Shown one piece after another: positions 12,249 through 51,774 of a stretch of DNA of 64,000 bases (positions within the stretch are counted from its first letter, which is position 1; every line of letters starts with the position of its first letter). Origin of the DNA: Anaerotignum propionicum DSM 1682. Lineage in GTDB: Bacteria; Bacillota; Clostridia; Lachnospirales; Anaerotignaceae. Position numbers and translations under genes: made by a program. The stretch lies in NCBI RefSeq assembly GCF_001561955.1, contig NZ_CP014223.1:2852001-2916000 (forward strand), given 5' to 3'. The notes below the pieces were generated by a model that worked only from the letters and a program-made list of their open reading frames with translations, searched no databases and was not told the DNA's origin.

Positions 12249-12265
12249 GGTGTCGTAAAACATAA

Positions 12266-12376
12266 TACCTCTTCAGGGCAGGGTGAAACTCCCGATCGGC
12301 GGTAAAGTCCGCGAGCGAAAGCAGGATTTGGTGAAATTCCAAAACCGACAGTATAGTCTGGATGGAAGAAGAGCAA
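12266..12376 (+). ncRNA. FMN riboswitch (RFN element)
   Basis: The near-invariant RFN segments appear in order: AGGGCAGGGTGAAACTCCCG, GGCGGTAAAGTCCGCGAGC, GCAGGATTTGGTGAAATTCC, AACCGACAGTATAGTCTGG and the closing ATGGAAGAAGAG. The P1 helix is CTCTTC (12269-12274) with GAAGAG (12368-12373). It sits between a good promoter and ribD, and a strong terminator lies 130 bases downstream. FMN binding would therefore be expected to favour early termination of the rib operon. Confidence 0.97.
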
Positions 12377-12508
12377 ACATAAAAATGGCAATTTATTTCT
12401 TTTCGATTGCCCCTTTTTACAGCAATATTTCTATGCCTTTTTGGCATACCATAAATTCCTTTTCATGGATTTATGGAGCTTCTTTTGCTGTTTCAAAATG
12501 TTTGATAT

Positions 12509-39420: not shown

Positions 39421-39831
39421 TTAATCGACATCTTCACTATCATCTACAAGCTTAATTGTAATAGTTTCTGTGGTATTTTGGTTGACTTCCAACTTATTGT
39501 TTAAGTAGAAACTACTCTCATCATCTTCCAGCACCATTCTTATAGCTGGCATCACATCTCTATAACTTGCATTCTCCAATACATCTCCTAGTCTTTTCCA
39601 AGCTTTATTCTTAAATTGTCTTCTCATTACTTTTCTTTCTTTTTCCAACTCTTGACTAAATAAATCTTGCTTGTACCAATCGTAATATGTACTTGGAGAA
39701 ACTCCTATAGCCTCATAAACTCCTTTACCCTGTTTCCCCTCATAAACAATCAAATAAATAGCTTCTGTTTGTTGTTTGGTTAAACCTGTTGCAGGAATAT
39801 ATTTTCCATCTTTATCTCTATTTTTTGGCAT
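39421..39831 (-). CDS. Terminase small subunit
   Basis: 136 residues. The N-terminal helix-turn-helix (LTKQQTEAIYLIVYEGKQGK to VSPSTYYDWYKQD) and the helical middle with FKNKAWKRLGDVLENAS match the phBC6A51-type small terminase. It recognises viral DNA for packaging. Divergent from the membrane protein gene next door. Confidence 0.82.
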   Translation of the reverse strand: MPKNRDKDGKYIPATGLTKQQTEAIYLIVYEGKQGKGVYEAIGVSPSTYYDWYKQDLFSQELEKERKVMRRQFKNKAWKRLGDVLENASYRDVMPAIRMVLEDDESSFYLNNKLEVNQNTTETITIKLVDDSEDVD

Positions 39832-41809: not shown

Positions 41810-42406
41810 CTAACTTCTAACTATAACAAAAGGATACCCCTCACAAGTTATCCCAAAATCAGCTTTTATTTGTTTATTTAACCTTACTCTTTTTAAGTCA
41901 TAGGCGTTCAATATTTCCTGCATTGATTTCTTCCATTGTAATTCCATTTTCTGTGTTTTCTTTAATTCGCTTTCTAATATATACTTATCTGTTCCGATAG
42001 CGTTTGCAACCATTTTAGCTAACTCTGTTGTAGCATCATCTGATTTTTCACTTGTACCTTTTTTATTCTCATACTTGTACTGGGGAAACACCTTGTCAGC
42101 TAATTCTGTACCAAACGTCCTTAATACATATTCTCTACTTATACCCTTTAATGTAATATTATTTTCTTTTAATATTTTTGCAATCTCTTCTGAATTTGAT
42201 AGAGAAGTGACTCCATATTCTTCAAATGAATAGAAGTTCGTTAATTTTTTATGTCCATATTTTATAGCAATTGCTCTAGCTTTCGCTAATTCATCCTCTG
42301 GTATCTTTTCTACGGTTACTTTGTCCAGCATATTCAATAATGTAAATAATGTTAATGATTGTGAGAATGTTTGGCTTCTATTAGGATTTATTTCACACAC
42401 TTTCAT
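41810..42406 (-). CDS. Phage early protein of unknown function
   Basis: 198 residues, helical, lysine-rich toward the C-terminus. It contains a possible HTH-like stretch (LKENNITLKGISREYVLRTF). Not recognised as a family. The start overlaps the primase stop (TAATG), so it is coupled to the primase and probably works with it in replication. Confidence 0.7.
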   Translation of the reverse strand: MKVCEINPNRSQTFSQSLTLFTLLNMLDKVTVEKIPEDELAKARAIAIKYGHKKLTNFYSFEEYGVTSLSNSEEIAKILKENNITLKGISREYVLRTFGTELADKVFPQYKYENKKGTSEKSDDATTELAKMVANAIGTDKYILESELKKTQKMELQWKKSMQEILNAYDLKRVRLNKQIKADFGITCEGYPFVIVRS

Positions 42407-43650
42407 TAATGTAGTATAACTTCCAAAAATAAAGGTTTTCCATCAACTTGTAAATCCTCATTAACGTACTGTGTAAAGTGCATCAACAATTTCTGAATAT
42501 GATGTTTCCTAGTCCTAATCAATTTTGATAACTCTGGAAATTCTTCTTTAAATTCTTCAGTATCAAGATAATTTGCACTGTCAATCATTAATTGTTTCTG
42601 CTGTCTTGTCCAATCACTTTCAACTAATTCTAATCCATATACCGCTTTGATAAATTCAATCGCTTCACTTCTTCTACAGTGTGCTAATTCCTCTGTAATT
42701 CCTATGATAGTTCTTACTTTATCACAACCAAAACATTTATATAATGGTGTTCCATTATCAGAAATATAAATATGTGCTGAAGGTGAATCATCTTCATGTG
42801 ATGGTAGAATACAGTTGAACATTTCATTACTTACTCCTAAATATTCCGCTAAATCAATACTGTTTATGTAACTATATAAATCATTCTGACACTTAAATAT
42901 GGTGAGGGGGGTTTTAATAGTAGGTGATAAAGAAGATATCTTATTATTACCTACCCCTAAATCCCCCATACCGAGAATAACCCTTAATTTATCAGCATTC
43001 CTATCCATAATAGCTTGAATATTTTCCCCTGATTTATTGACAATATTACATTCTTTCTTAACTTTATCTACCTTACCACTATTGGCAATAAGAGCTTTCT
43101 TAACCTTAGCAGACTTAATTTCCTCCACATAATGTTTACTTATAATTTCATCAGTGTTAATCGTAGCTGAATAATCTTCATAAATTAACATTCTACCGCC
43201 AAAGAATAATCTGCTGCCATCTTTACATTTTATGTCACAATGTTTGAAAGCTTCCATTAACGATGATTGAATTTTATCTCTGGTTTCAATATCTGTAATC
43301 ACTCTATCAGCACAGAATACCAATCTAAATTTTTCATGCTCTGGTGTATAACTAAAACTGGTATACCCAAAACAAGGTGATATATTTAATTCCTTGCATC
43401 TAATTAATTCCTCTTGAATAGTTGTACCCTCGTCAAAATCTAAAGCAAATAGTTGCTGCTGAATCCAGTCAGTTGTTTTCTTGCCATTTAAATATGCTGG
43501 CTTAAACGTGGCTCCATGTGATAACCCTTGTGCCAAATCCTCAATAGATATTTCTGTTTTGGTTAAATTCTTTTGAACACTTGCAATTTCATAGCCTTGT
43601 GGTTTGCTTTCGTACCTTTTGCCATAATACATACATTTTACTTTTGTCAT
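42406..43650 (-). CDS. Phage primase with CHC2-type zinc finger
   Basis: 414 residues. The N-terminal half resembles a primase-polymerase core (FALDFDEGTTIQEELIRC; GYTSFSYTPEHEKFRLVFCA; GSRLFFGGRM). Near residue 275 a CHC2-like zinc finger appears (NCILPSHEDDSPSAHIY, then YKCFGC). No helicase domain follows, so host DnaB or another phage protein must supply that activity. AAGGAGG precedes the ATG. Confidence 0.8.
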   Translation of the reverse strand: MTKVKCMYYGKRYESKPQGYEIASVQKNLTKTEISIEDLAQGLSHGATFKPAYLNGKKTTDWIQQQLFALDFDEGTTIQEELIRCKELNISPCFGYTSFSYTPEHEKFRLVFCADRVITDIETRDKIQSSLMEAFKHCDIKCKDGSRLFFGGRMLIYEDYSATINTDEIISKHYVEEIKSAKVKKALIANSGKVDKVKKECNIVNKSGENIQAIMDRNADKLRVILGMGDLGVGNNKISSLSPTIKTPLTIFKCQNDLYSYINSIDLAEYLGVSNEMFNCILPSHEDDSPSAHIYISDNGTPLYKCFGCDKVRTIIGITEELAHCRRSEAIEFIKAVYGLELVESDWTRQQKQLMIDSANYLDTEEFKEEFPELSKLIRTRKHHIQKLLMHFTQYVNEDLQVDGKPLFLEVILH

Positions 43651-46257: not shown

Positions 46258-47104
46258 TCTGTGTTTGTTTCATTGAATATTTTTCACCTATGTATAAAAT
46301 ATTTCCATTTTCATCTTTTTCTGGATAATTAACAATGTAATTATTTTTTTCCAATAAATTTTCTATAACTTGTGAACTACACATGTCCCAAACAAATTGT
46401 TTTGACTTATTTGTAGGGTAACATAAATCAATTAATATATTTGCAAGTTCTTTTTGGTCAGGACATATACATGAACACTCTTGTTTAAATACAGTCAGCA
46501 TCATGTTTTTTTGTTCAAATGCATCATCGTCGTTAATTCGTTCTCTTTTAATTAGTTGTTGATATTTTTGCAATTTATCGCAATAGTCTTTATATATCTT
46601 TTCAATTTTATTTTTAGTATAAGCAGAATAATTTACGCTTGATTTTAAAATAGAGTAATCGAATGTGTTGTTATTTTTAAAGTTGGCTAAGTAGTCATCA
46701 AACTCATTTTCAAACAACCAACAGATTTTATTTACTAAGCAATTATGTGTCCCCACTGGCATACGATAATCATAATATTTTAAAAATTCTATTTCTTGAG
46801 TGGTCTTGTTGGGTTTATTTTTTAATTCATTGATAGTAAATTTAAACTCTGTTTGACATTTCTTATTTGAATCAGTTATGTATTTTTTATATATCCTTCT
46901 TACGTCTGGGTAAATGTATTGCATGAAGTACGGTTTTTTATCAGCCACAAGCCGCTTATTAAATTCTTTCAACTCACGCTGTTCTTTTGAGTCGTCATCT
47001 TTAATTTTATTTGAACCATAGTCAAACCAATGTTTAGGTCTAGGTTTTGCAATAATTCCTTTTGTTTTATCAATAGCATTCTGCTGAAATAACTGACCAC
47101 ACAT
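46244..47104 (-). CDS. Phage protein of unknown function, possibly 5'-truncated
   Basis: 286 residues, Lys/Asn/Tyr-rich. KPYFMQYIYPDVRRIYKKYI and YRMPVGTHNCLVNKICWLFE look like conserved blocks of a larger phage family whose function I do not know. The ATG has no ribosome site at normal distance: AAAGGAG lies 23 bases upstream and the frame stays open back past it without another usual start. The gene may therefore have lost its 5' part. It overlaps the zinc-ribbon gene. Confidence 0.6.
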   Translation of the reverse strand: MCGQLFQQNAIDKTKGIIAKPRPKHWFDYGSNKIKDDDSKEQRELKEFNKRLVADKKPYFMQYIYPDVRRIYKKYITDSNKKCQTEFKFTINELKNKPNKTTQEIEFLKYYDYRMPVGTHNCLVNKICWLFENEFDDYLANFKNNNTFDYSILKSSVNYSAYTKNKIEKIYKDYCDKLQKYQQLIKRERINDDDAFEQKNMMLTVFKQECSCICPDQKELANILIDLCYPTNKSKQFVWDMCSSQVIENLLEKNNYIVNYPEKDENGNILYIGEKYSMKQTQIGEV

Positions 47105-47145
47105 AATTCTATATTCTTTTTTGCTTCTCCTTTTGGTACCTCTAT

Positions 47146-47174
47146 TTGCTAATTAAAGATACATGTGTTATATT
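47146..47174 (+). promoter_or_regulatory. Promoter of the HExxH protein gene
   Basis: TTGCTA and TATATT separated by exactly 17 bp, 23 bp before the start codon, with AAAGGAG between. Confidence 0.7.
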
Positions 47175-47197
47175 TATTATTAAAGGAGTGGTAAAAA

Positions 47198-47932
47198 ATG
47201 TATACCATTGAAGAAATTAATATAGAGATAGAAAAATTCTGCAAATCAACTTCATACAAAATACCACCTATTAAACATTGTTTACATGTTAATAGTGATG
47301 ATTTTATAGCTCAAGTACGTCGTAATAATGAGATAGAAAATGGATATGAACTATTAATATCTAATGACATTTACAAGTATAAAAAAGAATATCAAAAAGC
47401 TGTTTTATGGCATGAATTTACTCATATGTATGATTCTCTAAAATTTAAAGACGAATCTAAAATTGTTTTTGACGCAATGATTAAAACATTTTCTGAATCT
47501 CATGCAACTACAGTAGAATTGAAATATTTATTACATATCTCAATGAATCAAACATCACGAATTAATTTAAATAATAGAGTTTTGACTTGGAGAAATGGTA
47601 AAGAAAACTTAGACCTGATTACAGCTAATTATATAAATCAAAGCATACATCACTTTAATAATTTTTTATTAACCAAAAATCCATATGATTTTAATTCTGG
47701 TAGAACTCAGTTTTGCTACTTTTGCGGTTATTTAATGTTAGAAGACAAAACAAAAGCATGCAAATTATTAGATGGTGTTATGTGTTATTTCCCTGAGCAA
47801 TACAGAAAAAATCTATCTGAATTAGGTAAAGCTATATTAATTTATGATGTAAATAAAATTGTTTCAACATATGACATTTTTACATCCCAAGCAATGCTTT
47901 ATGGGATGCCAACTAAGAAAAATCAAACGTGA
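47198..47932 (+). CDS. Putative zinc metallopeptidase (HEFTH motif)
   Basis: 244 residues. The motif AVLWHEFTHMYDSLKF near residue 72 has the HExxH zinc signature with a hydrophobic helix before it, as in gluzincins and ImmA/IrrE peptidases. A downstream Glu in FSESHATTVELKYL could be the third ligand. A Cys pair (FCYFCGYLM) occurs later. No signal peptide or helix-turn-helix. It has its own promoter and AAAGGAG site and is transcribed against the early genes. It might cleave a phage regulator as ImmA does in ICEBs1, or act as a cargo gene; neither is shown. Confidence 0.7.
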   Translation: MYTIEEINIEIEKFCKSTSYKIPPIKHCLHVNSDDFIAQVRRNNEIENGYELLISNDIYKYKKEYQKAVLWHEFTHMYDSLKFKDESKIVFDAMIKTFSESHATTVELKYLLHISMNQTSRINLNNRVLTWRNGKENLDLITANYINQSIHHFNNFLLTKNPYDFNSGRTQFCYFCGYLMLEDKTKACKLLDGVMCYFPEQYRKNLSELGKAILIYDVNKIVSTYDIFTSQAMLYGMPTKKNQT

Positions 47933-47959: not shown

Positions 47960-47992
47960 AATTAGGAATAGATAGCTTATCCACTCCTAATT
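47960..47992 (-). terminator. Terminator of the small early gene (minus strand)
   Basis: AATTAGGA pairs with TCCTAATT, followed by TTTT on the minus strand. Confidence 0.65.
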
Positions 47993-47995
47993 AAT

Positions 47996-48036
47996 AGGTA
48001 TACTGCATTTTAGGGTATACCTAAATAATTTTTAAC
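47996..48036 (+). terminator. Terminator of the HExxH protein gene (plus strand)
   Basis: AGGTATAC pairs with GTATACCT, with an AT-rich TAATTTTT tail on the plus strand. It interlocks with the opposing terminator. Confidence 0.65.
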
Positions 48037-48259
48037 TCTGACACACAAGCTTGTCCTCATACCATTTGATTCCAGCGGTATTATTTACATGAGTTACAGG
48101 TGCTTCAAATTTGACGCTCCCCATCTGAACTAATACACCATTTTCAATCACTGGTGGTGTATATATTGCTTTAATCTCATTTTCTTTCTGTTTCATAGCA
48201 CATAATTTCTCTGCTGTTACAGATACGATAGTTTTTGCAACTTCATTTAATAATCTCAT
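48032..48259 (-). CDS. Small phage early protein of unknown function
   Basis: 75 residues from ATG 48259, which has AAAGGAG upstream; a longer frame to 48313 lacks a ribosome site. N-terminal amphipathic helix (LLNEVAKTIVSVTAEKLCAM), then a Pro/Val-rich part. No family recognised. It is the first gene behind the leftward promoter of the lysogeny switch, with a leader of about 480 bases. Confidence 0.65.
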   Translation of the reverse strand: MRLLNEVAKTIVSVTAEKLCAMKQKENEIKAIYTPPVIENGVLVQMGSVKFEAPVTHVNNTAGIKWYEDKLVCQS

Positions 48260-48737
48260 TTGAATCTCTCCTTTAATTTGTATTGTCAACTTTATTGACA
48301 TTAGAAATTTCACTTGACATTTTGGTTTTAAAAATTATCATTTTGGTGGATTGTTTGGAGCGAAAATAGAGTTTTCCCAACAAGTGGAAAGATACCTCTA
48401 TTAATCATCACTTCGGAGCCATTGCCCTTCGCTTAATACTGTACGAGTCTAATTTTCATTAGTAAGCCTAATAACCAAGTATGTATATCCCCTTGTCAGC
48501 TTATATCCTCTTATACCGTTCCACCCTCTTATTCTTTGTTTATTGTGAGTTTATACAAGAAAAATTCTCACTGACGCATATAATCCCTAGTACAGTGTAG
48601 GAAGTTACTGCGAATGATTTTTTGCATCGGCTCATTACACCTTATCTTATTTAGTACCTATTGTCCGTTAGAGGGACATTAGAAACAAGGGAAGTATATG
48701 CTTTCAAACCTTGGGTGATATTAAGTATCTATTTGAT
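48260..48737 (-). other. About 480-nt untranslated leader, possible structured RNA
   Basis: It runs from the leftward promoter (48744-48772) to the small early gene. No credible frame. Local hairpins are visible, for example TAGAG/CTCTA with TTTCC/GGAAA inside (48367-48400) and GTGAG/CTCAC around 48550-48575. It has fewer A/T runs than its surroundings. Confidence 0.45.
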
Positions 48738-48815
48738 ATCTAAAATATATCACAAAGGTTTTGTCGAGTCAATATCTTTTTGATATCTATTTGAATACTT
48801 GAACTTTGATATCTA
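48732..48815 (+). promoter_or_regulatory. Three copies of an 11-bp operator in the lysogeny switch
   Basis: TTTGATATCTA occurs exactly at 48732-48742, 48779-48789 and 48805-48815. Copy 3 fills the spacer of the rightward promoter. Copies 1 and 2 flank the leftward promoter. The adjacent plus-strand gene encodes a ribbon-helix-helix protein, the natural candidate to bind them. Confidence 0.8.
48744..48772 (-). promoter_or_regulatory. Leftward (early/lytic) promoter
   Basis: On the minus strand TTGACT and TATATT with a 17-bp spacer. Operator copy 2 lies 6 bp upstream of the -35 and copy 1 lies at the start of the transcript. Confidence 0.75.
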
Positions 48816-48826
48816 TATGATATAAT
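48799..48826 (+). promoter_or_regulatory. Rightward promoter of the Arc-type repressor
   Basis: TTGAAC and TATAAT with a 16-bp spacer that contains operator copy 3. The start codon of the RHH gene is 27 bp downstream. Confidence 0.8.
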
Positions 48827-48852
48827 TAAGATATTGAAAGGTGGTTATAAAA

Positions 48853-49047
48853 ATGGCAGTTCAACAAAATCCTTACCCTTTAAGAATTGATAAAAATACA
48901 ATGGATAAATTTAAGATTATAGCAAAAGAAAATGGACGTTCTGTAAATAAAGAGATTGAAATATTATTGAAGAATGTTATTTCCGAATATGAAGCTGAAC
49001 ATGGGAAAATTGAAATAGATGAAGATGAGCTATATAAAAAAAAATAG
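48853..49047 (+). CDS. Arc-type ribbon-helix-helix repressor
   Basis: 64 residues. NPYPLRIDKNTMDKFKIIAK then NGRSVNKEIEILLKNVI gives the strand-helix-helix of Arc/MetJ proteins; an acidic tail follows. AAAGGTGG lies 9 bases before the ATG. No CI-like repressor is seen in this prophage, so this protein probably holds lysogeny by repressing the leftward promoter and its own. Three matching operators surround the promoter pair. Confidence 0.85.
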   Translation: MAVQQNPYPLRIDKNTMDKFKIIAKENGRSVNKEIEILLKNVISEYEAEHGKIEIDEDELYKKK

Positions 49048-49118: not shown

Positions 49119-49424
49119 ATGGACAATGATATAAAAAATTTACTTACTGATATATCAACTTTACTTGATACAAAATTACAACCAATTAACGAAAAATTAT
49201 ATAGTTTAGAGCAAGGACAAAATGAAATCAAATTAACTTTAGAAAATCAAACCAATAAGAATATACAGTTATTAGTAGAAGGATATATGGGGAATATTGA
49301 CAAGATTGAGAAACTAGATTTTATTGCGGAAGATGTAAGTAATATTAACTTAGATATTAAACTATTGAAAAATGCAATACTTCATAATACAGAGGAAATT
49401 ACCAGATTGAAAATGATAAAATAA
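49119..49424 (+). CDS. Coiled-coil phage protein downstream of the repressor
   Basis: 101 residues, acidic, heptad-rich throughout (LEQGQNEIKLTLENQTNKNI; NINLDIKLLKNAILHNTEEI). A strong AGGAGG precedes the ATG, and it shares the repressor transcript. No domain recognised. It may be a repressor partner or antirepressor-like protein, by position only. Confidence 0.7.
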   Translation: MDNDIKNLLTDISTLLDTKLQPINEKLYSLEQGQNEIKLTLENQTNKNIQLLVEGYMGNIDKIEKLDFIAEDVSNINLDIKLLKNAILHNTEEITRLKMIK

Positions 49425-49430
49425 TTTATA

Positions 49431-49460
49431 GGGATGTGCATTAAATGCATATCCTTTTTT
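49431..49460 (+). terminator. Terminator of the repressor transcript
   Basis: GGATGTGCA pairs with TGCATATCC, then six Ts. Confidence 0.88.
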
Positions 49461-49750
49461 CTTTGTCAAATAACAAAGAGTATATTTTAAGAATATACCC
49501 CTATTTTCGTTTCAAATGTTTTAGGTGAAGAATTGCTCAAAAAAAGTAGTATCGTTTAAAATAGAGTGGAAAAACGTGCATTTTTCTAAGGGATATAGAT
49601 AAAGGATGGTCAATATTGAATGGAGTAACGAGCGGATTTTTCCGTTGGTTGAACCATGTTAAATTTAACATAGTTGAGTGAGGGTATATAACGTTTTGTT
49701 ACCCACCATACTCTGTGGATGAGGTATGCCCTGTTTTAGGGTATACCTAC
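49461..49750. other. 290-bp gap with palindromes
   Basis: A perfect 16-bp palindrome ATGTTAAATTTAACAT (49656-49671) and a hairpin GGTATGCCCT/AGGGTATACC (49721-49746, one mismatch) are seen. No gene. Confidence 0.5.
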
Positions 49751-50500: not shown

Positions 50501-51457
50501 TTACCTACGTTTACTCTCTATATGAATTCGTGTTTTATTCTGGTTAATTTCCAGTGTATCCAGTGGATTAAATTGGCTGTAATTCAACGATAAATCTTTG
50601 CTAAACATATTTACATATTCTTTTACTACCGTTAAATCACTGTGCCCTAATAGCTTTTGTAAGCGAAAAATATCACCGCCATTAAGAATCCATTTTTTTG
50701 CAAATGTATGACGATATAAATGAGAGGATGTTTTTATTACTCCCCTACTTCTATTGTATTTAACAAGCATTTCTTGATAGGTACGCAAATCTGATTTTCC
50801 TCCAAAAGAATTGCAAAATAAATAATCATCACTAGTACCCTTTCTGTAGTTAAGATATTCCTTTAAGATAACAGCTAAACTATCCGACATAGGAATTATC
50901 TGGGCTTTTCTATTTTTACTTGTATTCATCTGAATTAATTGGTTGTTAAAATCCAAATCGCGTATCTTTATATCTAACGCTGAAGAAATTCTATTTCCAG
51001 TAGCTAATAAATAATTAGAATACACCCAAGTCTTGTACTCCGTAAAATCAGTATTTTTAAGGTTAGGTTTCTTAAGTAATACTTTTAATTCTTCATCTGT
51101 GTATGTTTCTTTTATTTTCTTATCAGCCTTGGGGAGTTTAATTTTAAATTGCGGTATCCACTCATTATCCATACAAAAATAAAAAAATGCCCTTAAATCT
51201 CTTAAATAAGATTGCACAGTAATATCATTACAACCTCTTTCTCTTAAATAAAGGATAAAACCATCTATTTTCAATAAATTAATAGTGCTTAAACTCCAAT
51301 CTGCTGCTATTGAATATTTCTCTAGTACAGAAAAATGAACCCTGTAAATATCTAATGTTTTTTCAGACAAATTTCTTACTTTACAGCGAACAATATATTG
51401 CTCAAAACATTCTGACATGGTAATAGGTTCATTCTGATTAAGGCTAATTTTTTTCAT
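50501..51457 (-). CDS. Phage tyrosine integrase
   Basis: 318 residues. The N-terminal SAM-like core-binding domain runs to about residue 110. In the catalytic domain the Arg is in TGNRISSAL, the Lys in NTSKNRKAQ, HxxR in HLYRHTFAKK, the second His in LGHSDLT and the Tyr nucleophile in VVKEYVNMFS. I start at ATG 51457: GAAAGGA ends at an upstream ATG (51466) and is 8 bases before this one. It ends against the repressor side and starts about 160 bp from the attachment tRNA. No excisionase gene is recognised. Confidence 0.95.
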   Translation of the reverse strand: MKKISLNQNEPITMSECFEQYIVRCKVRNLSEKTLDIYRVHFSVLEKYSIAADWSLSTINLLKIDGFILYLRERGCNDITVQSYLRDLRAFFYFCMDNEWIPQFKIKLPKADKKIKETYTDEELKVLLKKPNLKNTDFTEYKTWVYSNYLLATGNRISSALDIKIRDLDFNNQLIQMNTSKNRKAQIIPMSDSLAVILKEYLNYRKGTSDDYLFCNSFGGKSDLRTYQEMLVKYNRSRGVIKTSSHLYRHTFAKKWILNGGDIFRLQKLLGHSDLTVVKEYVNMFSKDLSLNYSQFNPLDTLEINQNKTRIHIESKRR

Positions 51458-51512
51458 TTTAGACATCCTTTCAATTAAAAAATCACTCGTTAAACCCTAT
51501 ATTTTTTAAAAA

Positions 51513-51611: not shown

Positions 51612-51675
51612 CATTGATGCGGATGACAGGACTTGAACCTGCACCAGGAAACCCCGACTAGAACCTGAATCTAGC
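51612..51675 (-). repeat. attR: 64-bp direct repeat inside tRNA-Leu
   Basis: Identical to 25512-25575. Here the sequence continues into a complete tRNA gene. Confidence 0.95.
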
Positions 51676-51701
51676 GCGTCTGCCAATTCCGCCACATCCG
51701 C
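51618..51701 (-). tRNA. tRNA-Leu (anticodon CAG)
   Basis: 84 bases with a class II variable arm. The acceptor stem is GCGGATG/CATCCGC, the anticodon stem CTAGA/TCTAG encloses loop TTCAGGT (anticodon CAG), and the T loop is GGTTCAAGTCC. CCA is not encoded. The 3' part comes from the phage. Confidence 0.95.
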
Positions 51702-51774
51702 ATGTGGACAACTCGCTAAGTAATAATAATATATTCGACCAAAAAAGTCAAGGGATTTCTTCAATTTTTTTCTC

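Follow-up and report, generated by a model that had tools for sequence, protein, structure and literature searches.

A prophage Arc-type repressor gene with conserved putative operator sites adjoins a predicted structured RNA of clostridial mobile elements

Two divergent promoters that share a threefold repeated sequence, next to a gene for a small ribbon-helix-helix (RHH) protein, raise the question of what such an arrangement controls in a clostridial prophage. We analyzed this locus in a stretch of 64,000 nucleotides of the genome of Anaerotignum propionicum DSM 1682 (the window), where the initial annotation had proposed a main lysogeny switch. The prophage extends from ~25.5 to 51.6 kb of the window and is delimited by two copies of the 3' part of tRNA-Leu, at 51612 and 25512, which agree over at least 43 bp. 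A tyrosine integrase (50501..51466, reverse strand) adjoins tRNA-Leu (51616-51702), and terminase, portal, head, and tape-measure genes are present. As had been stated initially, there is no CI-like XRE repressor among the 25 prophage ORFs scanned for regulators (18 with Pfam and 7 structural ones with PHROGs, some small ORFs lying outside the scan). One of the 18, at 39421-39831, matches HTH_Tnp_1_2, which is of the transposase/terminase type. Two adjoining ORFs in 41810-43650, the first with a sub-threshold match to a DnaG zinc ribbon, match opposite ends of the PHROG 25531 profile (617 positions) and are thus possibly one split gene.

The start of the RHH gene is best set at the ATG at 48853, in agreement with its orthologs, giving a protein of 64 aa (48853..49047, forward strand). 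Its assignment to the Arc type holds: it matches Pfam Arc at 21.9 bits (cut-off 20.4), PHROG 3180 'Arc-like repressor' at 8.3e-7 and, among PDB profiles, pArc at 6.3e-6 across two repeats and natural Arc (1arq) at 0.02, while DUF6364 scores 24.2, under its own cut-off of 27.3. The DNA-reading strand of the protein is NPYPLR. The gene is followed by an ORF of 101 aa with no assigned role (49119..49424, forward strand; PHROG 33872 at 0.0015) and by a terminator-like site found by sequence search (49430..49456, forward strand), which lies past the end of the repressor operon.

The sequence TTTGATATCTA occurs in three exact copies, at 48732, 48779, and 48805, all on the forward strand, with no further exact copy in the 64 kb. 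None of 5000 dinucleotide shuffles of the 140 bp around them (48713-48852) reached a threefold exact 11-mer; threefold 10-mers arose in 4 and 9-mers in 14. Copies with up to two mismatches are not enriched in the whole window (49 found vs 41.95 expected). The layout relative to the promoters is the one described initially, with one site in the spacer of the repressor promoter and two bracketing the leftward promoter. The leftward promoter, TTGACT-17-TATATT (48744..48772, reverse strand), and the rightward one, TTGAAC-16-TATAAT (48799..48826, forward strand), which is the repressor gene's own, were found by sequence search; each scores 10/12 and has a TG preceding the second hexamer, and promoter-like matches as a class are not above chance in the region (14 found vs 20.1 in shuffles). 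Predicted operator copy 1 (48732..48742) lies 1 bp past the leftward -10, approximately at the inferred transcription start, copy 2 (48779..48789) lies 6 bp before the leftward -35, and copy 3 (48805..48815) occupies spacer positions 1 to 11, out of 16, in the rightward promoter.

These sites travel with the protein. A search of 392 genomes of the window's order found an RHH homolog (E<=1e-5) in 67, and 30 loci were fetched from these matches for a comparison of sites and DNA-reading strands with 33 rows in all, in which L205 and L067 represent the same locus and the upstream lengths of L207 and L214 are atypical. The comparison follows the check that the initial annotation had itself proposed, a search of relatives for the sites together with the RHH gene. 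In all five relatives examined that have the strand NPYPLR[IV], sites with at most one mismatch occur before the gene (3 in L201, 3 in L202, 1 in L203, 2 in L204, and 2 in L036, a viral contig); among the 27 rows whose strand differs, 2 have one site. The distance between the first two sites is that of the window, 47 bp, in L201, L204, and L036, and 58 bp in L202. In the same three loci, operator copy 1 has a counterpart at the matching place and TTTGATATCTT stands at the position of copy 2; conservation of copy 3 in relatives is weaker. Another prophage in the genome of the window (L037) and a locus of genome G019 (L067) have a homolog with the strand FTMRM and a divergent region with three copies of TGACATCA, a threefold 8-mer that is modest on its own (31 and 57 of 2000 shuffles reach it). 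GAYATCA is common to the two site sets. The layout described initially is confirmed, and its conservation is stronger than the window alone could tell. This co-conservation of sites and DNA-reading strand suggests that the Arc-type protein binds the repeated operators, and the pairs NPYPLR/GATATCA and FTMRM/GACATCA would form a natural specificity series for RHH proteins.

The leftward promoter had been taken for a lytic promoter, and this part of the initial proposal was not supported. It faces a gene-free stretch of ~470 bp, most of which is a predicted structured RNA that the initial annotation missed. Beyond it come an ORF of 77 aa (48032..48265, reverse strand) with no Pfam or PHROG match, a terminator-like site of 15 pairs on the same strand (47960..47992), found by sequence search before the lytic genes (terminator-like sites in 3 kb: 2 found vs 0.7 expected), and a convergent ORF (47198..47932, forward strand). 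The long leftward gene run begins at 47104, and no operator-like site with up to two mismatches was found in 47105-47197. Since the terminator-like site and the convergent ORF come before 47104, the leftward promoter would here yield the RNA and the 77-aa ORF. The convergent ORF has a HEFTH metallopeptidase-like motif, noted by eye, and we considered it as an ImmA-type protease; its Pfam match (Peptidase_M76, 0.0054) is under the cut-off.

The predicted RNA, 378 nt as delimited (48335..48712, reverse strand), was recognized by DNA similarity, which reaches ~48306-48743 in relatives, and by covariation. There is no ORF of at least 40 aa on its strand within 48335-48712, and no Rfam 15 covariance-model match overlaps it in the window or at 8 other loci. 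Its similarity at the DNA level is 85% to L037 and, in genomes of other genera, 82% to G019 and 71% over a part to G017. For wider searches, we used two covariance models, R1 for a core of 162 nt and R2 with 108 positions, the latter covering the most conserved part, a core of three hairpins (48532..48641, reverse strand). An exact-pattern scan of 84,980 species genomes gave 16 matches, 11 of which fit R1 at E<=3.2e-10; all 11 are titled Clostridia, Clostridium, or Eubacteriales, and two of them are G017 and G019 again. The other five (Porticoccaceae, Sphingobium, Sinobacteraceae, Planctomycetaceae, and Hephaestia) fail R1 and were rejected. Among the 392 genomes of the window's order, only the window's own genome (G000), G017, and G019 have true matches; weak R1 matches in G342, G196, and G222 (E 1.5e-4 to 4.7e-4) fall inside protein ORFs or extend across them and were judged to be chance. 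With R2, the RNA was found in 72 of the 292 genomes of one Clostridia family (that of G397), none with more than 4 copies. In the class as a whole, 6 of 391 genomes, distributed over four families, have it, 4 of the 6 being already among the earlier loci, two of them to judge by identical coordinates. These counts are probably lower bounds for the genomes drawn, given the stricter filters in searches of more than 40 genomes and the exact patterns of the scan, and the 59 R2 matches among the 59 chosen loci follow from the choice of loci.

None of the 46 viral-contig pattern loci that were compared with the RNA model fits it, the core patterns of the second clade described below gave nothing in viral scans, and blastn with the window RNA and one RNA of that clade gave nothing in phage and plasmid collections. 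A single viral record contains the RNA, and it corresponds to the prophage of the window itself or to a close twin. We found no named match for the family in Rfam 15 or in the literature searched; it may be an unnamed entry of the motif set of PMC8040213, in which candidate structured RNAs of human microbiomes are reported to number in the thousands.

The copies fall into two clades. Clade 1 consists of the window, L037, G019, and G017, and in all four a promoter stands directly before the RNA: besides that of the window, TTGACA-17-TATTAT in L037 and in the G019 locus (L039), and TTGACA-17-TATATT, noted by eye, in G017 (L058). The RHH gene and the RNA occur together in three loci only, the window, L037, and G019. 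The latter two repeat the design of the window with another site and another repressor strand. In G017, an XRE-type protein of 69 aa (HTH_3 at 7.7e-5, 23.1 bits, cut-off 23) replaces the RHH protein, and ATAATGAAATCATTAT-type palindromes lie at the RNA promoter. The regulators of clade 1 thus vary around a constant RNA: RHH with NPYPLR, RHH with FTMRM, and XRE. A possible antisense promoter, TTGACA-16-TATCAT (48314..48341, forward strand; 11/12), lies at the 3' end of the window RNA, directed toward the repressor gene, and a promoter-like site opposite the RNA strand recurs in L037 (12870-12897) and L039 (18418-18390). Such a site could drive repressor synthesis across the RNA region, which we regard as a lead. 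In L037 (G000:C1 2215000-2234000) and L039 (G019:C12), whose hosts belong to two genera, the integrase adjoins ORFs that by eye resemble glyceraldehyde-3-phosphate dehydrogenase.

Clade 2 has other neighbors. Neighboring genes were clustered for 52 of the 59 loci, including four of clade 1 (L115, L127, L131, L148, L149, L151, and L154 were left out). A relaxase gene of one cluster lies on the same strand and starts 458-865 nt after the core start in 23 of the 52 loci, and three example relaxases of this cluster match Mob_Pre at 8.2e-44 or better. Other loci have a MobA/VirD2-type relaxase (L179), a NikA/MobC-type protein (L170), or an integrase (L161), and clade 2 sits in what look like integrated mobilizable elements. 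No RHH gene recurs beside the RNA in the neighbor clusters of this clade. A terminator-like site is present 130-30 nt before the core in 42 of 47 clade-2 loci, compared with 5% in mononucleotide shuffles (the 48th, L178, has too short an upstream sequence), and in 2 of the 4 clade-1 loci. Among the loci listed, these upstream sites differ in sequence from one locus to another, and no promoter is evident by eye upstream of the clade-2 RNA. We considered a group II intron, given that clade 2 follows terminator-like sites, and found no Rfam match to one. In L157, L169, and L175, among the loci listed, a short insertion breaks the RNA, at positions that coincide or lie close together.

Does the conserved stretch act as RNA, and on the strand proposed? 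In an alignment of 11 distinct sequences, compensatory changes exceed those of shuffles: 91.7% of the cells pair, 10 of the 23 pairs are double-changed, and the covariation is 0.296 vs 0.137 in shuffles, with 0 of 500 reaching the observed value and slid controls at 0.115 or less. With 48 distinct rows, 94.7% of the cells pair, 17 pairs are double-changed (111 double-changed cells vs 25.5 in shuffles), and the covariation is 0.361 vs 0.160, with slid controls at 0.076 or less; the model served to fit this alignment, and its shuffles ignore relatedness, so that relatedness alone can exceed the shuffle controls. A separate alignment (A5) of 40 clade-2 copies, made from the 52 loci after leaving out the four of clade 1, seven truncated or interrupted ones, and L158 at a contig end, has 44 predicted pairs, 16 of them with a double change. 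For the single sequence, the advantage of folding over shuffles is mild (z -1.50), and the same holds for its complement (z -1.56); the case for structure therefore rests on covariation. Regarding the strand, 38 clade-2 rows give a consensus energy of -28.0 with 44 pairs in sense vs -14.0 with 25 pairs in antisense. The energies of two core alignments also favor sense (-18.2 vs -15.0 and -14.0 vs -9.7), whereas their covariation term has no sense preference (1.9 vs 2.42 in A3, 2.32 vs 2.33 in A4). Finally, the core has 76 G.U cells vs 23 A.C cells on the RNA strand.

Single-strand origins of Mob/Pre plasmids and ICEs are conserved folded non-coding stretches near a relaxase gene, and the stretch could likewise act as single-stranded DNA, either as such an origin or as part of a transfer origin. 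This would also account for its place before the relaxase genes, and the clade-2 loci, with their upstream terminator-like sites and no evident promoter among those listed, are in line with it. Against this stand the clade-1 promoters, which have sites in matching positions, the wobble pairs and the better consensus fold on the RNA strand, and the occurrence of the RNA in two tailed-phage prophages, in neither of which a relaxase gene was noticed; we consider this explanation quite improbable. We give even less credence to a 5' leader, an attenuator or sensor of the next gene. No terminator-like site is listed between the RNA and the 77-aa ORF, and a stretch resembling a ribosome-binding site, noted by eye, precedes this ORF. 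Yet the next gene varies: small ORFs in L002 and L009 have an end resembling the PPVIENGVLVQ stretch of the window's 77-aa ORF, G019 has an unrelated ORF of 154 aa, relaxases follow elsewhere, and in L059 the next ORF past the RNA is on the opposite strand.

The initial proposal itself casts the RHH protein as primary lysogeny repressor and takes the leftward promoter for the early lytic one; it has some support in other loci. L037 is a prophage with terminase and portal genes in which the genes past the RNA run in the RNA direction with no terminator-like site listed on that strand between the RNA and the early genes, so that its promoter may feed them. In L233, the strand divergent from the RHH gene continues to RecT and SSB genes. 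Given the lack of XRE among the scanned ORFs of the window prophage, a primary role of the RHH protein is still conceivable there. Nevertheless, XRE-type proteins lie to the right of the module in 4 of 5 relatives (L036, L230, L231, and L233; one of the two in L036 is under the cut-off), where the RHH protein would be at most one of two regulators, and in the window the terminator-like site and the convergent ORF separate the promoter from the lytic genes. What stands of the proposal is an RHH gene with its own sites between divergent promoters; as a primary switch, we find it unlikely.

The relatives point to another kind of module. Small RHH-type genes lie opposite or beside the RHH gene in L036, L230, L231, and L233. 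Two match PHROG 582 'Arc-like repressor' (L036:2712-2852 at 7.9e-4, L233:9444-9560 at 3.6e-5), two others match a PHROG 'Arc-like repressor' (L230:9796-10014 at 1.1e-7, L233:9903-10058 at 2.8e-7), and the remaining ones were recognized by eye. Of these small RHH-type ORFs, one with REQTTIRLP or EQITIRLP is convergent with the NPYPLR gene, at or over its end, in each of the four relatives (L036 3164-3307, L230 9796-10014, L231 6697-6828, and L233 9903-10058). The divergent genes of L233 include an AntA/KilAC antirepressor (ANT 2.5e-35, AntA 2e-26), with RecT and SSB further along, and a Rha-type gene occurs on the contig of L231; in L232, the stretch listed shows neither an XRE protein nor a clear divergent partner. 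In P22, the antirepressor ant is regulated by mnt, arc, and sar within immI, which an excerpt of PMC11016777 describes as a region of secondary immunity. The likeness lies in small RHH repressors within a secondary immunity module and in the participation of an RNA (PMC11016777, same excerpt), as well as, through the relatives, in the second small RHH-type gene and, in one of them, the antirepressor. Promoters with repeated sites beside an RHH gene are the immI-like feature found in the window. The window differs in that its apparent target is a structured RNA of ~380 nt and not an antirepressor, with no Mnt or Ant gene adjoining: no Mnt-like second RHH gene was found in the neighboring ORFs (Pfam, PHROG), and under the leftward promoter we encountered the RNA and the 77-aa ORF, the latter having no family match in the same databases, and no antirepressor. 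In P22, sar acts as an antisense RNA by binding to the ant mRNA. In the window, repressor gene, sites, and promoter are present, and the RNA, to judge by the comparison of loci, stands where relatives have protein genes.

The best reading, which we consider likely, is that the Arc-type protein represses its own gene and the leftward promoter of the ~380-nt RNA, in a module of the immI kind. The 64-aa protein would bind the three sites, acting on its own gene through site 3 and closing the RNA promoter through sites 1 and 2. The main product of this promoter would be the structured RNA, plus the 77-aa ORF, with transcription ending before the lytic genes. Loss or dilution of the repressor would release the RNA, which may then act in trans, on repressor loss or when the phage infects, to induce or take over. 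In relatives, the module faces small RHH-type genes and, in one, an antirepressor; here, this position is taken by an RNA whose family occurs also in relaxase-bearing integrated elements. More tentatively, and with somewhat less than even confidence, we suggest that the RNA founds a widespread family of RNAs carried by mobile elements of Clostridia, which would act in trans on induction or transfer and to which phages have added local repressors (two Arc-type specificities and one XRE), the RNA effector replacing protein genes, including the antirepressor, in an immI-like module; the antisense promoter may add a second layer.

The RNA appears to be the more interesting object of the locus, a structured family of clostridial mobile elements for which we found no name, beside an Arc-type repressor with conserved sites. 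A repressor module of a known type appears to target a conserved structured RNA that recurs in integrated elements of Clostridia without an Rfam 15 match, and the adjoining repressor genes offer a handle for switching this RNA on and off. The question of function is shared with GOLLD and ROOL, described in an excerpt of PMC12286853 as large structured RNAs of prophages and phages without known function. The action in trans proposed here may be likened to the rise of GOLLD during lysis (PMC12286853, in the same excerpt). The window RNA is shorter, has no Rfam 15 match, occurs also in relaxase-bearing integrated elements, and adjoins a repressor gene with sites. The small RNA DicF acts by base pairing, and its operon is under DicA, which, unlike the repressor of the window, is not an RHH protein. 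The dicBF operon (DicF and DicB) of the cryptic prophage Qin is similar in being, in the available portion of PMC10448788, a repressed prophage operon that combines a small RNA with a small protein.

Two further observations concern the surroundings of the module. The sequence TTTTAGGGTATACCTA occurs on either side of it, at 47980-48030 and 49719-49750 of the window. Outside the prophage, an FMN riboswitch lies at 12265-12377, and the ORFs downstream of it resemble riboflavin genes.
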